DNA from: a virus
Length of the DNA stretch: 64,000 nucleotides
Reading direction: 5' to 3' (one strand)
Virus record (IMG/VR): IMGVR_UViG_3300025133_000030
Location: 62,001 to 126,000 of that record
How positions within the stretch are numbered: position 1 is the first letter of the stretch; each line of letters opens with the position of its first letter. This document shows positions 22,640 through 64,000 of the stretch, in pieces. A model generated the notes under the pieces. The model saw only the letters and a list, made by a program, of their open reading frames with translations, was not told the origin of the DNA and did no database searches. The translations under genes were made by a program, and so were the position numbers.

Positions 22640-22943
22640 GGGGGTGAACAGGTATCGACAGGGTAAGGATAATAATACGTGCAAGGCTGTGTGAGTGAGG
22701 ACACAGTAAAAACACTCAAAACTATAAATGCCAATGATAACATTGAAATTTTCGAGGACTTTGCGCTTGCCGCATAGTTCTTGAGGAGGTTTCCAGATAC
22801 CTTCTTAATCGAACATCTGGATTTGTTATATTTTGTGATATATTTGGTGCTCAATGGCTGTCTAGGGCCAGATCTAGACTAATCTTGTGAATGACGTGTT
22901 ATTTGAGATGTTCTGGACGCGGGTTCGACTCCCGCCACCTCCA
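22640..22943 (+). ncRNA. ssrA: Transfer-messenger RNA (tmRNA)
   Basis: 5' GGGGGTG (22640-22646) pairs with CACCTCC (22936-22942); discriminator A at 22943. GAACAGGTATCGACAGGG resembles the conserved tmRNA 5' domain, and GCGGG-TTCGACT-CCCGC is the T arm. The tag frame (22730-22777) encodes ANDNIEIFEDFALAA then TAG; the ALAA end is the usual protease signal. CCA is not encoded (CTA follows). It should rescue stalled ribosomes with a phage-specific tag. Confidence 0.92.
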
Positions 22944-23059
22944 CTAGTTTTAAAACTCCAAAAAATGTTCCGTTACCATACGTGTCAAATAGTTTTGGTT
23001 GCATATACGTTCTTCGATCTGTTTTTGTTTCTGAGGGAGATTAAATTATACAGTATATA

Positions 23060-25773: not shown

Positions 25774-26382
25774 ATGATAAGAATAATCGGAAAAATACCG
25801 CACCGTATAACAGTGGCATGCTCTGGGGGAATCGACTCCATGGTAATATTACATTTTCTAATGCAGTCTCGCCGCCAAATCGACGTAGCCTTCTTTAATC
25901 ATGATACCAGTCACTCGAAAAAAGCGCAGAACTTTGTAAAAAAGTTCTGCGCTGAGCATAAACTTATTTTGACCATAGGTCGAGTCAAAGGAATGAAAGG
26001 GAAACGATCACTTGAAGAGTTTTGGCGAAATGAAAGGTACGCCTTCTTTGACAGTCTCGGAAGCGACTTTGTCATCACATGTCATCACTTAGACGACGTG
26101 CTTGAGACTTGGTTGATGTCTTCTTTCCATGGTACTCCAAAGGTAATTCCATACAACCGCAACCCAAATATTTATCGTCCGTTTTTACTAACAGAAAAGA
26201 GAAGTCTGATTTCTTATTGTGAAAAACACAAAATAGAATGGATAGACGACCCCTCAAACAAATCGGTAATACACGCTCGAAATCGAGTCCGCCACAATAT
26301 AATACCTGAAGTTTTAAAAGTGAATCCGGGAATTAGAAAAGTTATTCGTAAAAAACTCGTACAAATATATGATAAAGTCTGA
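25774..26382 (+). CDS. tilS: tRNA(Ile)-lysidine synthetase
   Basis: 202 residues, roughly the catalytic N-terminal domain only. PP-loop SGGIDS (17-22); ITCHHLDDVLETWLM (101-115); RPFLLTEKRSLISYC; DDPSNKSVIHARNRVRHNIIPEV (158-180) are all TilS signatures. TilS attaches lysine to C34 of tRNA-Ile(CAU) so that it reads AUA rather than AUG. A CAU tRNA follows 15 bases after the stop, its probable substrate. The C-terminal domains of bacterial TilS are absent. Confidence 0.9.
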   Translation: MIRIIGKIPHRITVACSGGIDSMVILHFLMQSRRQIDVAFFNHDTSHSKKAQNFVKKFCAEHKLILTIGRVKGMKGKRSLEEFWRNERYAFFDSLGSDFVITCHHLDDVLETWLMSSFHGTPKVIPYNRNPNIYRPFLLTEKRSLISYCEKHKIEWIDDPSNKSVIHARNRVRHNIIPEVLKVNPGIRKVIRKKLVQIYDKV

Positions 26383-26388
26383 TATTAT
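26383..26388 (+). promoter_or_regulatory. Extended -10 element before the tRNA
   Basis: TGA-TATTAT ends 9 bases before the tRNA. The -35 position (TACAAA, 26360-26365) is weak. The tRNA may be transcribed from here or with tilS. Confidence 0.4.
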
Positions 26389-26397
26389 ATAAACAAT

Positions 26398-26472
26398 GGG
26401 CCTTTAGCTCAATCAGGTTAGAGCATTCGACTCATAATCGACAGGTTCTCGGTTCAAATCCGAGAGGGCCCA
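26398..26472 (+). tRNA. tRNA with CAU anticodon, probably tRNA-Ile2
   Basis: 75 nt. Acceptor GGGCCTT/AGGGCCC, D arm GCTC...GAGC, anticodon loop CTCATAA, T arm CTCGG-TTCAAAT-CCGAG, discriminator A. CGACTCATAATCG in the anticodon arm matches E. coli tRNA-Ile2 as I recall it. C4-G69 and C5-G68, known TilS recognition pairs, are present. With tilS adjacent, Ile (AUA) is more likely than Met. CCA is not encoded (CTA follows). Confidence 0.9.
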
Positions 26473-26492: not shown

Positions 26493-27140
26493 ATGAGAGA
26501 TTATTTTTGGGGTTCGCAAGAAGAGATGATTTTTGAAGAACAATCACCAGAGCGAACTAAAAGCAGTTATTTTCCTTTTGAGAATAATACGTCAGAGGAT
26601 TTCAATAAAGTAGAATTTACCAGCAATCGGGTTTATTTTTATTCTAGTGTATCAAGGCCTAAAATCCTTCGCCTAAACAAGGCAATCACTAATTTAAACT
26701 CCAATCTACAGGCTAGGCAAATGGTCTACGGAGGAAGCGAGCCTGAGCCTATTAAGTTGCACATAAATAGCTATGGTGGATCAGTTTTTGCCGGCTTGTC
26801 TGCTGTTGATTATATTTTAACATCGAAAGTGCCTATACATACAATAATTGACGGCTGCGCTGCGTCTTCTGCAACTTTGATGTCCGTTGTTGGTTCACGA
26901 AGGTTTATGCATAGAAATGCATGCATGTTAATCCATCAATTATCGGGCCACATGTGGGGAAAATACCAAGACATGCAAGATGACATGAAAAACTCAGAAA
27001 TGTTAATGGATAAGATTAGGTCAATATACAAGACATACACAAGGGTACCCGAAAAGGAACTTGATGAAATGCTGAAGCATGATTTGTGGTGGAATGCAGA
27101 AACATGTTTGAAGTATGGTTTGGTCGACGAAATAATCTAA
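26493..27140 (+). CDS. clpP: ClpP-like serine protease
   Basis: 215 residues. KLHINSYGGSVFAGLSAVDYI and DGCAASSATLM place the catalytic Ser near 125; MLIHQLSG gives His 148; KHDLWWNAETCLKYGLVDEI supplies the Asp region. The N-terminal 40 residues are extra and not ClpP-like. Probably forms a ClpP-type barrel or modifies the host one; prohead maturation is an alternative role. AGGAG precedes the ATG. Confidence 0.88.
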   Translation: MRDYFWGSQEEMIFEEQSPERTKSSYFPFENNTSEDFNKVEFTSNRVYFYSSVSRPKILRLNKAITNLNSNLQARQMVYGGSEPEPIKLHINSYGGSVFAGLSAVDYILTSKVPIHTIIDGCAASSATLMSVVGSRRFMHRNACMLIHQLSGHMWGKYQDMQDDMKNSEMLMDKIRSIYKTYTRVPEKELDEMLKHDLWWNAETCLKYGLVDEII

Positions 27141-30262: not shown

Positions 30263-30940
30263 ATGAAAGAATATATTAAAAAATCATCCCAAAAGAGGGT
30301 GGGTGAGTTTCCAATTGTGGGTTGGGGAATCAATTTGGTCGTTGCGGACCCCATCACAAATAACGTCTCGCCAACTTCAGTCATAGAAAGACTTAAAGCT
30401 AAGATACCTCACAAATATATAGAAAACATCGATGCTATATACGTGGGAAAATTTAAACACCTAGAGAAAATGGACCACAACGCAAGCTATATGGATGGAG
30501 TAATATATGTAACAAGCGAACAAGACTCAGAATATGATATGCTTGACGACATTGTTCACGAAATTGGCCACGCAGTCGAAGAGTTGTACGGTATGTCCAT
30601 GTATGCAGATAAGAAAATCGAAAGGGAATTTCTAGGTAAACGCCATCGATTATATGATTTGCTAGCTTCGGAAGGATATGACGTGGAACCTTATCAGGTA
30701 GATTTTTTGTCTCCTGATTATAATCAAAGATTGGATTCTTTTTTTTATATGGAGGTTGGATATCCCTTTATGGAGATGTTGTCTTCTACTTTATTTTATA
30801 GTCCGTACGGCGCAACCAGCTTAAGAGAATACTTCGCAAACGGGTTTGAGTCTATTTATTTTTCAAACAACGGTAATCGACTAAAAAAAATAAGCCCCAT
30901 ATTGTATAATAAGATAAAATCAATAGAAGGGAATGAATAA
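30263..30940 (+). CDS. Zincin-type metalloprotease
   Basis: 225 residues. DDIVHEIGHAVEELYG (His 99, Glu 100, His 103) is the zinc site; LREYFANGFESIYF supplies a downstream Glu, a layout seen in anthrax lethal-factor-type zincins. No signal peptide, so it acts in the cytoplasm or is packaged. Ends in a TAATG overlap. Confidence 0.8.
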   Translation: MKEYIKKSSQKRVGEFPIVGWGINLVVADPITNNVSPTSVIERLKAKIPHKYIENIDAIYVGKFKHLEKMDHNASYMDGVIYVTSEQDSEYDMLDDIVHEIGHAVEELYGMSMYADKKIEREFLGKRHRLYDLLASEGYDVEPYQVDFLSPDYNQRLDSFFYMEVGYPFMEMLSSTLFYSPYGATSLREYFANGFESIYFSNNGNRLKKISPILYNKIKSIEGNE

Positions 30941-40665: not shown

Positions 40666-42303
40666 ATGAGAGCAGCAGAAGTTAAAAAACCAGTAAGAAT
40701 AGTCGGTTTTCATTCCGGCCATGATTGTGCATACTGTATATTGGAGGATGGAATTCCTATCATCCATGAAGAATATGAGAGAATCTCAAGAATAAAAGAA
40801 GGTAACGGCGACGCTTTAAAGCTATATTGGGAGAGACAAGAAGATCCTAAAGATATTCATTTTGCGCATGTAATGCACCAACCCGGTGGAGCAAAATCGA
40901 TATATCCAGAATCATGGAACGCAATGAAGAAAATAGTTGAAACCAGCGGTGGTCTCTATTCTGAGCCGGGGCACCATCAAGCCCACGCTGCCAATGCGTT
41001 CTTTACTAGTGATTTTGACAAGTCTCTAATAATAACTTTTGATGCTGGAGGTTGGGATTATACCCACTACGTTTCTTCAAAACTCTACGGGGCAATTATG
41101 GATGAGAAAAAGCCAGTAATCGTAACGACCTCAGCTTGGAGAGGGAAAGACAACATAATCTCACCAGTAATTTTGGAGCCGTGGACGGGTGTGAATATAG
41201 GGCACCTGTGGCACGATATTTTAAATCCCGTGTTTGGATTGTCTAGCGGCTCCCCAAAGGGAAATCAGGCGGGCACGCTCATGGCCATGGCATCGGTTGG
41301 AGACAAGTCCAAGTATCGCGATTTATTTAGGGACAATTTTCACCCAAATTATATATCGAATCATTTTGATTTCCTAAAGAAAGAACATGAGAATACAGAA
41401 CAAGCCAAGTATGATATCGCAGCAGCGCTTCAAGATGTAACAGAAGAGGTAATAAAAACTTTTATATCTGATCATATCTCGCCTGAAGACAAAAATATTT
41501 GTTTGGCAGGTGGGGTTTCTCTGAATTCTGTAGCTATAGGTAAAATATATGAGTGGTTTCCCCAAATTGAAAACATTTTCGTCCCACCAGCGCCATATGA
41601 CGCAGGTCTGGCCATCGGAGCAGCACAGTTTATGTACCATCAATTGATGGGATATCCTAGAATAAAGAATGGAGCTAACGCTTCTCCATATTTAGGGAAG
41701 ACATATAGCGAAAAAGATATATTGGAAGCGATAAATGACACGCAAGTAGAAATACAGAGCGTGGACTCCTCCGTAGACGACCTAGTAGAAAAACTTGCAG
41801 ACGGGAAAATAGTATCAGTATTTGCCAGTGGATCTGAATCAGGACGCCGAGCATTGGGTAATAGAAGTATTCTAGCAGATCCAAGAAGACCAGACATGAA
41901 AGATAAGATCAATGAAAAGGTTAAACACCGACAATGGTTCAGGCCATTTGCACCTAGCATTTTAGCTGAAGAGGTTAAGAATTGGTTTGTAAGAGACGTA
42001 GATAGCCCTTACATGTCTGTCGTTATACCTTTCAAAGAAGACGTTGTAGACAAGGTACCTGCAGTTGTTCATTTGGATGGGACTGGACGCCTACAAACAG
42101 TCACAGATAAAACTAATCCTTGGTATTATTCTTTCCTGAAAAAGTGGCACGGTCATTCTGGTGTGCCTATAATACTTAATACCAGTTTTAATGATAGGGA
42201 GCCAATTGTCGAAACTCCTCGTAACGCAATTGATTGTTTTCTCAAAACCAACATAGATTATCTATATTTTGTTGATTCTAAATTGATGATATCTAAAAAA
42301 TAA
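40666..42303 (+). CDS. Carbamoyltransferase (NodU/CmcH type)
   Basis: 545 residues. IVGFHSGHDCAYCILEDG, EPGHHQAHAANAFFTSDF (metal-binding histidines), LAGGVSLNSVAIGK, and the C-terminal GRRALGNRSILADPRRP...RQWFRPFAPSIL...NTSFNDREPIV match the whole family. Transfers carbamoyl from carbamoyl phosphate to a sugar hydroxyl. Confidence 0.9.
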   Translation: MRAAEVKKPVRIVGFHSGHDCAYCILEDGIPIIHEEYERISRIKEGNGDALKLYWERQEDPKDIHFAHVMHQPGGAKSIYPESWNAMKKIVETSGGLYSEPGHHQAHAANAFFTSDFDKSLIITFDAGGWDYTHYVSSKLYGAIMDEKKPVIVTTSAWRGKDNIISPVILEPWTGVNIGHLWHDILNPVFGLSSGSPKGNQAGTLMAMASVGDKSKYRDLFRDNFHPNYISNHFDFLKKEHENTEQAKYDIAAALQDVTEEVIKTFISDHISPEDKNICLAGGVSLNSVAIGKIYEWFPQIENIFVPPAPYDAGLAIGAAQFMYHQLMGYPRIKNGANASPYLGKTYSEKDILEAINDTQVEIQSVDSSVDDLVEKLADGKIVSVFASGSESGRRALGNRSILADPRRPDMKDKINEKVKHRQWFRPFAPSILAEEVKNWFVRDVDSPYMSVVIPFKEDVVDKVPAVVHLDGTGRLQTVTDKTNPWYYSFLKKWHGHSGVPIILNTSFNDREPIVETPRNAIDCFLKTNIDYLYFVDSKLMISKK

Positions 42304-45915: not shown

Positions 45916-46317
45916 GTGAGAAAATACCTACCAACTCTATCAGAATTGATAGATAGATTATCAATAGCACAACTCAAGGAGGTGTTCATAATAGATCACA
46001 AGGATGAATACTCCCAAGAGATATCAGACATTTGCCACGACATCGACCTGATATTATCAGACTCAGAGGAAGTCACAGCAGATACTATCCGTGCAATAGT
46101 GGTTTTGTCTCAAATGAACCTGCACATCTGGCATAATGAATCAAATTACAGAAAAGGCATCAAAGATGGCAACAACCTTGAACTAACTCACGGGTTAAAT
46201 GGAATTAGAAATACAGCTAAAAATAAAATTCAAGAAGTTGTCGGAGGGCGAAAAGATTACAAGATTGATTGTCTTGCAGCAGAATTCAAAGATTGGGAAA
46301 TAAGTTGGAAAAAATAA
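45916..46317 (+). CDS. Helical protein of the sugar cluster, 133 aa
   Basis: GTG start directly after the cupin stop. LPTLSELIDRLSIAQLKEVFIIDHKDEYSQEI and so on, all helical. Similar proteins sit in sugar clusters of other phages (from memory). Function unknown. Confidence 0.7.
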   Translation: MRKYLPTLSELIDRLSIAQLKEVFIIDHKDEYSQEISDICHDIDLILSDSEEVTADTIRAIVVLSQMNLHIWHNESNYRKGIKDGNNLELTHGLNGIRNTAKNKIQEVVGGRKDYKIDCLAAEFKDWEISWKK

Positions 46318-61900: not shown

Positions 61901-64000
61901 GCGGCCGCAATAAGCGCAACGCCAAGAGTCACAGTAACATCAATAGGGGAAATTCATCGCAAGATACATTAGACATTACTGATCACCACCTATTAAGGGC
62001 TTTCAGTTACGTTAGAACAGTAGGAGCAAAACGTTACTTGTTTCAATTGGAGATACTTTATCGTGCCACCTCAACAAACACGACAAGGACGGGAGACAGG
62101 ATCTACTTATCTCCAACAAATTTGAGGTCGTACCAAGCCGATCGTAGTAAGATCTTGGGCAGGGATTATTTTTATGAACCATCCGGCCACAACAAAAGAC
62201 GACACTCGGATTCTCCAAACCAAGCAAGGTATAATACAAATTATTATAGGCTTTTCTCCACCACTCAAGGCCGCGACCACAATAGCGATTATAATTATAA
62301 GGTCGAATCTGTTCTGCGAGCATATGATTTGTCTGCCATCATGTCCGAACATGGAACCTATCGTGAGACTGCCGGCATGCCGACAGGCTTCCCGGACCTA
62401 CCCCCAGACGAGCTAGAAAGAATAGAACTAGCTTTGGAAACTCTGGCACAAGACTATCTAACGGACTTGAAAGAAAATAAGCCTATCTCTGTACCTTATG
62501 AAGCTCCCGGAGGAAAAACGAAATATATGATCCGTGATGCTAAATCATATTTAAGAGACGGCGAGGGCTGGGCATATGATCCTTCCCAATTTGCTCTTAA
62601 AAAGTGGTGGACGGGACGAAGAAAAGCCCGCGGCGACAAAATCGAAGCTGCATCTGTGGATACTTGGTACGACATCGCACTTCGAATAAACCTTCCGGGT
62701 AAGACATATGTTATGAAGAGGGTATTTCTGGCGAACAATACTGCGAAAATTAATACTACTGATGTTTACAACGTTGACTTGATGACCGGCATTGATTTAC
62801 CGGGCGACATAGATGAGATATTAGAGTCAACAGAACTTAACTTCGCGATTACCCCCGAGAAGAGACTAAGACTTAAAGCTCACGAAATTGAAAACTGCTA
62901 CAATTTTGTCCGCGGAATCCGACAACCAGCCTCTTTTATCAATTGGATTGAGAGCTATCGAGAATGGGCAGAAGACGGACAAGCTATATTGGAAGAGTTA
63001 AATGGCCAATTGAATAAGTGTAATATGGAATTTGGAATGAGATTGACTTACGTCAACGCTCTAGATGATGAATTTTCAAACAGTGAAGTCTCAGAGACCA
63101 ACGAGAGATTTCATAATGTGGAGTTTCCTACGGAGGCGCCAGATGTAGTGGAGGAGCCCGAAAGCCCATTTTCGTCGATCCCAAGTACTTCAACTATCCA
63201 GAGAACGAGGATGCCTCCTAGAACGAGTCCCGACCCAGAAGCGCTACTTACGGAGTTGGACCCTAACATAGAGCCAGTGGGATTTGGAAGAGGTCGAGAT
63301 GATAGGGTATATTCTCAAAAGAAGTTTAGAACGACAGAGAATTTTTATGCTCCACCTAATACTCGGGACGAAGAAATGTTGCGACACAAATATATATATT
63401 CTATGCCAATCATAGAAAAGACGGTACCGTTTAAGTTATCTAACATATTGACAATAGAGAGACAGGACTTTTCAGAGGTTGCTATGGATGCACTTCGCGC
63501 CGCCGACAACGCAGCTATCCCACTAACAGGAGAAGTCCGAGATCAGCTCAACGAAATGGCCAACACCGCTGATGATCCGAGTTCTGCCGCGGGATCTTAT
63601 GGAAATGAAGCTATTTATGACGCCCCACAACCTATAGGGGCCCCTGAGAGAGAATCGGGGCATTCTCCAGAAGACCCAACGTTTATAAATGTAGTTCAAT
63701 ATACAGAAGGATTGTCACCAGAAGAGTTCCTCGCAGGCCAATTCGCGACTATAGACACAGGAAATCTCGATGTGCAGGGATATTTAAAAAACAAAATAAT
63801 AAGCTCAGATGAATTTAATATTTTCTTTAAATATTTATTTCCGATAAAGAGGTTTTCGTCTGTGATGGCAATTTACAACGTCCACGCCACTTCAGCAAAT
63901 TATGATTTAGACAAGATGTTTGATCGTACCAGAGGCCTCACAATGTTAATAGCAAAAAATATGATGGTCTCAGACTGGAGAGGAATTCAGGTTGATGCAA
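52969..64000 (+). CDS. Giant virion-associated protein (3' partial, at least 3,677 aa)
   Basis: One frame runs from ATG 52969 (MARIPGTAVTQRS) to the window end; I read many lines across it and met no stop. Helical regions (AIASARDQGALVGAKVLAREL) alternate with Tyr/Trp/Pro-rich beta regions. Residues about 2218-2285 are almost only Gly, Ala and Val. No enzyme motif recognised. Being after the lysin and baseplate genes, it is probably a tail or baseplate protein. The many - strand frames here are its shadows. Confidence 0.88.
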   Translation, partial: MARIPGTAVTQRSPMTQAQRELENSYDWRTLEEPKYVPNEAAYVVNIKTPYASSRGGGIGVDESQLADIKAWARTQAIKKIFDFYDKKCVFLSGGNPEPHDSWRQRYPGLGEGIHESWRNYLIESNPPASGERSVDGFTWNSRELAGILGITFEEITIEDYYNEPSFGDPTDWFISSRPGSTIQVKVLFAADYVDAIPQNIEGYTGSGGLSRNAKKSLIAKMATYPLFGTPEETRRGRTIIDPGSARARDYSDVRRNVGTLDAALSGDETAKDTIRKSAQRGFEQSRTKREFDYYNRKFKLKGPYRQDQDPFSAPDNQSFTSAIASARDQGALVGAKVLARELAVNEGKNYLKSSMKQGANAAYDKSARKAAVAAAKSNNKKGEDLANIDSPVVTRRYETRNFLEKIEFVAKSLEEFDKDVKKFRESGGEIYFSFLAPFEGEAEEIKRQQKEAQEKIYSDKRKGVYGTGPERHDKAARAVEKSDEEVIARIHSQSMQKLNLKREANSLRQIANSLAGFLSDNTEVYKKDHKERWKAGSGIPMSPFNQGFAGQGPFLDINFHILNKQTEPLIDIDFPTGTALTAAMDYHGPGRHKKFPTADAIDEELSQYIEEVGISGRLASVTYIDKGFVEYPCLYNVGAFMKSGGFTNPVSVGYLFQLDTMYDELMALNSCREIGAGIPSFPFIFRFTYPGLQIKPAKPTAKAKFKLGSSVKTEAEGIKEDAIYSSKMAKRDAGGALKGASNYVAQKLPYGNICTLKELHQKFLKKFSLSKILCDLYACFQLPGIPDISLWQPKFSMPKFKKSKTGWPKINLKDALKEMIVRFLCGLITELINAVNSPDCDAWKEFAGDLIGGIIEDIKAELNQALENIVPGLGQAAFGLPELEREDACPDLGGVTPTPNRLGTQNQQLLSASSVSDLVEKLSHALRPSEFCSLLAGEPDEMTLQVVNVMIDSRYPALRTIFTTNDIIMSVFSALGSTIIGQDLCQLMLGAVSGPSGPDALCDVDAFRQRVLANRVSKDELDEQVEADKRRRNRLYNKLKRLADSQNILSGVVPDNIVGGTPDSDNPALVPLYVPGSRVDAAADIAIRTVFNAITAPYDVEVKSFKNRMRGPALGQASAGSAPSEPPIDALRFRALMDNPDSVFYNPTGIQPDWYTGQNLMDDTELLSRMFEAWQNYNKTLNPDPQGETEAVFAEKLIMLLRDFKSIERVQTEDRVAKFKLLVEPDESPDDDMGVEIEYSHKPSTFCITDTYNLKDTYSVSISGEGMQHEISFDGSSEVDIEGEAIREQISDYDIKEFRREDGLPIQQQIYAFFAADIWSEYFGHGFKFNNHNSGYGSPFFSYMASNQFYTVIESILQTIAKRIAESDLITKDEFGRYGLENIDLNPVFDSDGCRLDGLISINSAIQSVKQHFYGLMGQEDQDYDPGPLPLSMASKGVTSILVRLMIVQVVLEGIVSFKEFGINTLYEDEMLVHYMMKRFDTMLQNFDSPADYTGNGDYSNFFKMFQLLLIFSEREQVTTDEVSNLSAALVTLSAPSTTMDEEEFEARHPDLFSEIEYQAALKKSIISNSMLVADSVRTIIGAATRDIFLAYANNLDVMDVAASRHKIDGWEDIYGTADTGGRLGHSSLAELEYNDELRHEDGFRRHIEQVIGPFPYNPEEKNRFYNPDGTLKAGMESFTDGGFVLEKFIKIQEVNWNDEVFRGYSNGVLNARDEQRVLVRHPEITEAPAGNLIPVESFKEWVFEMVGRPPTQRGDEDWFGAYFDCSNTFYGTATACEERLSDEDGYGPNDVGYDETKDLYGLTPAYLPNGHHDFGDDGNGHYHEKTDQNGGSDSNILFTTGKLPIHTGDTWGPDNGISIRGYATPQGRSATDTGPNAIDKQIERYLLDPASSQNPWVPLRFEKIRFMYTEDQRTSDKNPFLRTKLDTFRRRSPSLSPSRYIEDFTNDGLLGMSTTETDNSIEPKHNDTCGTKYVIYFVDANALFADFPRDSWRRNPATGRYELIDQASAATLPKSLQSLNPIAPPKSLMANKLQGAMDYENYTDKNKVRLTVVDKETWTSLHKIWAGTTSQKLSSGATVEDLITRSRNVQVSRDDVASIAAIKEREVFWETTYKTCLYSTPEEEHLHKGIAKSIGQDVTGKSTVDEKGNMTGNRFSISGRQITVRAVPPEKGGSYAEQQAYTYVSRGRYLGKAPERTETFGEAAENWWDEYGDYVTAVGAGIAIGALAAATGGAGLGALAAGVGGAGGAGGGALAGAAAVAGAGAVAGAAVGAAGGAVAAGVMAIEDALETEAGITSTVNTLRSDAIARRQEGFLKEEKNATSVFQGNGIQMGDLVTVWADVDWRDYLSTQDSGRSRFGWFTDNCYRYGFDRQIEANDPTIEGPWSRRNDTSLPYWYDRAGGWFFTCGTAVNYAVEPYWTSDPGARHPADFQSNSDSPLNVATNMSADLPNNLALRDYLESNKAIERHMGLDFESGLSVDGNAHHTMFKNWPVYSTGRPGYQYVGWLSSDIRVNGNTTITNPEDPILTTEMETTPAEDSVTTLSSIISGKSTYIHSSGKSIRDNNLSAGFINLNESLLTAADYNNWADVVRQGGDPTLVHTLEQSKIALENELAALPAITLRANSPELLERREIEQRINDQIAFIESVLDPIGSFGDIGAYEFLSAIHGRTKWYGSMPVRLSERSEFLALGIDANGVYLDQNNDSSKFNPDEERLSFASTRGMYTKREANPYFWMPSSMFFLGGLGNQGYRVENTSEFGAEWQAGGGARDQPSNAEAENPALCREYYIPSPFGIHPNLGYDTRGTGGVRSGDPVSWNRLGYKDKMSLHDIYQSDFPGSDASLHNAGFTYARDSKAPAYYCEPGHTLGMDFPGEKDPDELGQNVIRDLMTYGIYNDDSNFDDIINSIANGTGEISYRDWWFTSGRFAHEHDTQDYPLPRITREEGESDDEFERRKTSEQTAWRSARNADIKKWFSSGGRNKRNAKSHSNINRGNSSQDTLDITDHHLLRAFSYVRTVGAKRYLFQLEILYRATSTNTTRTGDRIYLSPTNLRSYQADRSKILGRDYFYEPSGHNKRRHSDSPNQARYNTNYYRLFSTTQGRDHNSDYNYKVESVLRAYDLSAIMSEHGTYRETAGMPTGFPDLPPDELERIELALETLAQDYLTDLKENKPISVPYEAPGGKTKYMIRDAKSYLRDGEGWAYDPSQFALKKWWTGRRKARGDKIEAASVDTWYDIALRINLPGKTYVMKRVFLANNTAKINTTDVYNVDLMTGIDLPGDIDEILESTELNFAITPEKRLRLKAHEIENCYNFVRGIRQPASFINWIESYREWAEDGQAILEELNGQLNKCNMEFGMRLTYVNALDDEFSNSEVSETNERFHNVEFPTEAPDVVEEPESPFSSIPSTSTIQRTRMPPRTSPDPEALLTELDPNIEPVGFGRGRDDRVYSQKKFRTTENFYAPPNTRDEEMLRHKYIYSMPIIEKTVPFKLSNILTIERQDFSEVAMDALRAADNAAIPLTGEVRDQLNEMANTADDPSSAAGSYGNEAIYDAPQPIGAPERESGHSPEDPTFINVVQYTEGLSPEEFLAGQFATIDTGNLDVQGYLKNKIISSDEFNIFFKYLFPIKRFSSVMAIYNVHATSANYDLDKMFDRTRGLTMLIAKNMMVSDWRGIQVDA

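Follow-up and report, generated by a model that had tools for sequence, protein, structure and literature searches.

A phage gene for a tRNA(Ile)-lysidine synthetase (TilS) reduced to its catalytic domain lies directly upstream of a CAU tRNA that we assign to tRNA-Ile2, and the two likely form a cassette for decoding AUA, in which the enzyme would convert C34 of the tRNA to lysidine. The pair is located in a 64,000-nt stretch of an uncultured phage genome record of 153,803 bp (here termed the window; positions 62,001 to 126,000 of the record), and the phage is large and probably of marine origin. All features listed here are in window coordinates.

25774–26382, plus strand: tilS, tRNA(Ile)-lysidine synthetase, N-terminal catalytic domain only; ATG start, 202 aa plus stop
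25822–25839, plus strand: PP-loop ATP-binding motif SGGIDS, TilS residues 17–22, conserved in the homologue alignment
26083–26109, plus strand: HHLDDVLET motif, TilS residues 104–112, containing D108 (Aquifex D137)
26278–26295, plus strand: RNRVRH motif, TilS residues 169–174, containing R173 (Aquifex R205)
26398–26472, plus strand: tRNA-Ile2 (Rfam RF00005), anticodon CAU at 26433–26435, A73 at 26472

Recurrent linkage of tilS and the CAU tRNA

The tilS stop codon and the tRNA start are separated by 15 nt on the same strand, exactly the spacing originally noted. Among the nearest viral relatives of the window TilS (n = 28, 55–67% identity), a CAU tRNA follows the tilS stop codon after 9–25 nt in 27 and after 633 nt in the other. 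In this clade the whole block of tilS, tRNA, clpP, and PhoH is conserved, and much of the adjacency there therefore reflects shared ancestry. The clpP match begins 111 to 910 nt after tilS in these relatives; inserts between tRNA and clpP differ in length, with almost none in some and several hundred bases in others, but the gap between tilS and tRNA stays short.

Beyond the nearest clade, CAU tRNAs are found 0–82 nt downstream or 15–90 nt upstream of tilS. For this comparison, clustering of the TilS proteins at 65% identity gave 36 clusters, and a CAU tRNA lies within 100 nt of tilS in 16 of them. Of the 22 clusters with any tRNA within that distance, the nearest one has the CAU anticodon in 15, in both gene orders, compared with a background CAU share of 29/183 (16%) among tRNAs farther from tilS. 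The tree requires 16 switches between adjacency and its absence, and well-supported branches alone account for at least six changes of the ‘not adjacent’ label. A strict search pattern for CAU tRNAs, in which the T-arm was fixed, missed real tRNAs (as in L216), and a looser pattern was used afterwards. The linkage of short TilS and CAU tRNA is real and recurrent. The records of several relatives contain no tRNA besides the CAU tRNA, or only a few others. Such conserved adjacency makes the CAU tRNA the likely substrate of the phage TilS, in keeping with the original prediction.

An alternative that we regard as unlikely is that the phage enzyme mainly serves the tRNA-Ile2 (or tRNA-Met) of the host, raising AUA decoding in general, and that the neighboring tRNA is an independent codon-usage gene. 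It would fit the 49 of 79 tree representatives that have no CAU tRNA within 100 nt, and two large records without a CAU tRNA (G001, 249,606 bp; G052, 278,435 bp), but records may be fragments, and the tRNA cluster of G001 sits at a contig end. Several TilS-positive phages without an adjacent tRNA carry an Ile2-like CAU tRNA elsewhere in the record. Host modification of phage tRNAs, which is documented (PMC13191261), would fit this alternative as well; against it, chloroviruses also encode TilS, but the target proposed there is tRNA-Met (PMC7589089). The enrichment near tilS, specific for CAU and recurring in both orders, also speaks against it.

Identity of the CAU tRNA

The tRNA scores 68.5 bits against the Rfam tRNA model (cut-off 29; E = 8e-13) and has a fold z-score of −3.75. 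By position it contains C4–G69, C5–G68, U12–A23, C29–G41, A37, A38, and A73, with CUCAUAA as anticodon loop; both acceptor pairs and the CGACTCATAATCG arm are thus where they had been described. The identity features of E. coli tRNA-Ile, which we take to be C4–G69, U12–A23, C29–G41, A37, A38, and A73, are all present (6/6 features for E. coli IleRS). Of the E. coli genes with RefSeq labels, tRNA-Ile2 likewise has 6/6 and both acceptor pairs, and elongator tRNA-Met has 4/6 and neither pair; initiator tRNAs also lack C4–G69 and C5–G68. Structural-position identity points the same way, at 0.77 to E. coli tRNA-Ile2 versus 0.60 to the elongator tRNA-Met. Most cellular Ile2-type genes fall between 0.70 and 0.80 (Sulfurovum 0.80, Pelagibacter 0.77; one Enterococcus CAU tRNA 0.65), and Met and initiator genes reach at most 0.60, initiators at most 0.52. 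The phage tRNA has neither a Met acceptor stem nor a GGG/CCC anticodon stem with an open 1–72 position. Its CCA end is not encoded, although several relatives do encode one.

On these features we classify the tRNA as tRNA-Ile2. An elongator or initiator tRNA-Met, whose nearness to tilS would be meaningless, is highly improbable: ARAGORN does label the gene tRNA-Met, as had been anticipated of annotators, but it names tRNAs by anticodon alone, and both the features and the position identities refute the Met assignment.

The catalytic-domain-only TilS and its partner tRNAs

The 202-aa phage protein exceeds the cut-off of TIGR02432, the NCBI model of the TilS catalytic domain (133.8 versus 93.6 bits), and matches PF01171 with an E-value of 2.8e-37; all 30 members of set A1 also match TIGR02432. 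The closest solved structures by sequence are the TilS proteins of Aquifex, Geobacillus, and E. coli, and the best Foldseek matches of an AlphaFold model (pLDDT 92.7, pTM 0.88) are the Aquifex TilS structures 2e21, 1wy5, and 2e89, with TM-scores of 0.82–0.84. The catalytic motifs are complete, as first proposed, with SGGIDS, HHLDDVLET, and RNRVRH all found. In the alignment, the catalytic residues of Aquifex TilS, D36, D137, and R205, correspond to phage D21, D108, and R173, respectively. Across 290 sequences, the PP-loop, H104, D108, E111, D159, N162, R169, and R173 are almost invariant: S17, G19, D21, and S22 are unchanged in the 288 phage homologues in which the column is filled (G18 in 285), H104, D108, and E111 in all 290 (H105 in 282, T112 in 267), R169 in 290/290, and R173 in 289/290. 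The short TilS family is therefore under selection as an enzyme. A different PP-loop tRNA enzyme with another target, such as a TtcA-like thiolase, can be practically dismissed, since TtcA, although of the same superfamily, matches weakly (37.5 bits against the 272 needed for the equivalog), while the TIGR02432 equivalog-domain cut-off is exceeded, TilS structures lead the Foldseek matches, and the TilS-type RNxxRH motif is conserved.

In descriptions of known TilS enzymes, the C-terminal domains are required for locating and modifying tRNA-Ile2. The phage chain ends at residue 202, and the C-terminal tRNA-binding domains CTD1 and CTD2 are absent. Bacterial TilS proteins are of type I, with CTD1 and CTD2, or type II, with CTD1 only, and the C-terminal domains make tRNA contacts (PMC12514573). 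Because both are missing, the short phage TilS is classed, from its domain content, as a domain-truncated variant of neither type. It shares fold, ATP motif, and D36/D137/R205 with the type II enzyme of Aquifex aeolicus (29% identity), which however is about 317 aa long and has a C-terminal tRNA-binding domain; type I enzymes (E. coli 1ni5, Geobacillus 3a2k) contain the same catalytic domain together with the two domains that the phage protein lacks. In type I TilS, CTD2 residues are essential for activity (PMC12514573), so that the catalytic domain by itself might have low activity or depend on a partner.

The catalytic-domain-only layout is found in essentially all of 205 non-identical homologues, nearly all from uncultured phages. 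Their length from the domain start is 190–229 aa, apart from two shorter ones, versus 280–464 aa for clear cellular TilS matches in the same search, and a long N-terminal extension occurs in one cellular protein only. In the tree, the 18 sampled cellular TilS split from all 79 other representatives (SH-aLRT 99). Three short cellular sequences match the phage family, of which two (L088 and L090) are phage-like by phrog matches and tRNAs. The third, L089 (442–1734), which is counted among the 79, comes from Kiritimatiellae and is 430 aa long; in it an unassigned 222-aa N-terminal part precedes a phage-type TilS domain, and its gene adjoins a purL-like gene. With this possible cellular cousin, the short-TilS clade is phage-dominated but not strictly phage-only.

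The missing domains also bear on how the tRNA is recognized. C4–G69 and C5–G68 have been reported as TilS determinants, although such determinants in the stems do not hold for bacteria in general (PMC12069591), and CTD2 contacts the acceptor stem in type I TilS (PMC12514573). As the bacterial domain that reads them is absent here, the acceptor pairs support tRNA-Ile2 identity, as the original prediction had it, more strongly than they support recognition by this enzyme. Compared with the gamma-proteobacterial determinants, the window tRNA has both acceptor pairs and a U–C mismatch in place of G27–U43. The mismatch is shared by many relatives, and 27–43 is G–C or C–G in just 4 of 45 tRNAs lying close to tilS. 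C4–G69 is invariant and C5–G68 nearly so in the nearest clade; both are frequently missing from other clades, and the CUCAUAA loop is nearly always retained. Loss of the acceptor pairs would be expected if the enzyme has no domain to read them, and we infer that the phage TilS may read the anticodon arm, with retained acceptor pairs serving IleRS or host TilS.

Altered partner tRNAs, with a long variable arm or an A-U-rich D-stem, were observed in some clades. CAU tRNAs near tilS have a variable arm of 11–15 nt in L031, L181, L186, L261, and L353, and an AAUC/GAUU D-stem in L037 and L178; these are possibly not charged as ordinary tRNA-Ile. More tentatively, the phage proteins could represent a third TilS architecture, in which a stand-alone catalytic domain chooses its tRNA by the anticodon arm, with no reading of the acceptor stem, and through co-evolution with the linked tRNA-Ile2 forms an AUA-decoding pair independent of host TilS; altered partner tRNAs might then escape recognition by the host enzyme.

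AUA use and the proposed cassette

In 119 long ORFs, AUA is used 27.7 times per 1000 codons and is the commonest Ile codon of the phage (43%). This proportion (0.43) slightly exceeds the 0.38 predicted by A/C/T use at fourfold sites, and similar or higher shares are found in nearest-clade relatives. The proposal that AUA is frequent in an AT-rich genome thus stands as to frequency, but at 42% GC the genome is only moderately AT-rich. The median observed/expected ratio for AUA is 0.99 in phages with an adjacent tRNA versus 0.63 in those without; once phylogeny was controlled, independent tree pairs showed no association between AUA use and adjacency, and the difference was discarded as evidence. 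One gene departs from this codon use.

L083, 16751–18319: phage GroEL chaperonin

This gene nearly avoids AUA (3 of 44 Ile codons), which suggests that the codon may still be slow or costly. A candidate second AUA reader, a tRNA-Ile(UAU) outside the window (record positions 46069–46143; L084, 6069–6143), was set aside: ARAGORN calls it tRNA-Ile and it folds as a full cloverleaf, but Rfam gave no significant tRNA match for it, and a search of 21 other records yielded no counterpart. Were it functional, it could decode AUA with no need for lysidine.

In the proposed cassette, tilS and the tRNA would probably be transcribed together, and the host would trim the tRNA and add CCA. The phage TilS would then use ATP and lysine to convert C34 of the linked tRNA to lysidine; the modified tRNA would no longer be a substrate for Met charging, and would be charged by host IleRS and read AUA. 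In this way the phage would probably provide itself with a tRNA that reads an otherwise rare codon. Because tilS is present in nearly all bacteria, the phage gene may become important once host tRNA-Ile2 or host TilS runs short, sustaining AUA translation, or the shortened enzyme may suit the phage tRNA better. Enzyme and likely substrate are both phage-borne, but the earlier description of a self-contained unit overstated the case: the host would supply IleRS, CCA addition, RNase processing, lysine, and ATP, and would nearly always have its own TilS.

Phage TilS and phage tRNA-Ile2 are each already known. The former has been reported, in the text available to us, from pelagimyophages (PMC7029224), Pseudomonas phages MIJ3 and PA5oct (PMC6892783), and Ralstonia phage RsoM2USA (PMC8504454), and these portions mention neither domain loss nor linkage to tRNA-Ile2. 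The PA5oct protein (203 aa) belongs to the same family and lies about 7 kb from the nearest CAU tRNA, while that of RsoM2USA is given as longer, at 349 aa (PMC8504454, available portion). T4-like phages (PMC1524935) and a vibriophage (PMC13191261) also carry CAU tRNAs of Ile2 type, often mis-called Met; the accessible sections of both sources do not mention a phage tilS. Lysidine was measured on the tRNA(CAU) of the T4-like vibriophage, and its formation credited to the host (PMC13191261, accessible section). Chlorovirus TilS is viral too and was put forward as an answer to the heavy AUA use of these viruses, but these viruses have eukaryotic-algal hosts, and the part of PMC7589089 at hand reports no linked tRNA-Ile2. 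None of the openly accessible literature searched described a catalytic-domain-only phage TilS, or its recurrent pairing with tRNA-Ile2.

If a large phage TilS family works without the C-terminal domains, it would represent the minimal enzyme for switching a tRNA in codon as well as amino-acid identity, and would account for continued AUA decoding by phages when host resources fail. The linked pairs provide natural enzyme–substrate sets for recognition tests and for orthogonal AUA decoding, and many phage ‘tRNA-Met’ calls are in fact tRNA-Ile2.

Several other features were observed nearby. A tmRNA (window 22640–22944, plus strand; tag ANDNIEIFEDFALAA; Rfam 119 bits) is 81–93% identical to the tmRNAs of six loci from related phages (L005, L013, L015, L169, L170, and L171); no close cellular match was found among 16 genomes, and no smpB in the record. 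Directly after the tRNA, and kept there in most near relatives, is a ClpP-like protease (26493–27140, plus strand), which could form a protein-tagging and degradation set with the nearby tmRNA or, following PHROGs, act as a head maturation protease. A Nol-like carbamoyltransferase is encoded at 40666–42303 (plus strand). Finally, a 225-aa protein (30263–30940, plus strand) matches a metalloprotease-type Pfam domain below threshold (HEIGH motif), and is conserved downstream of PhoH in relatives.
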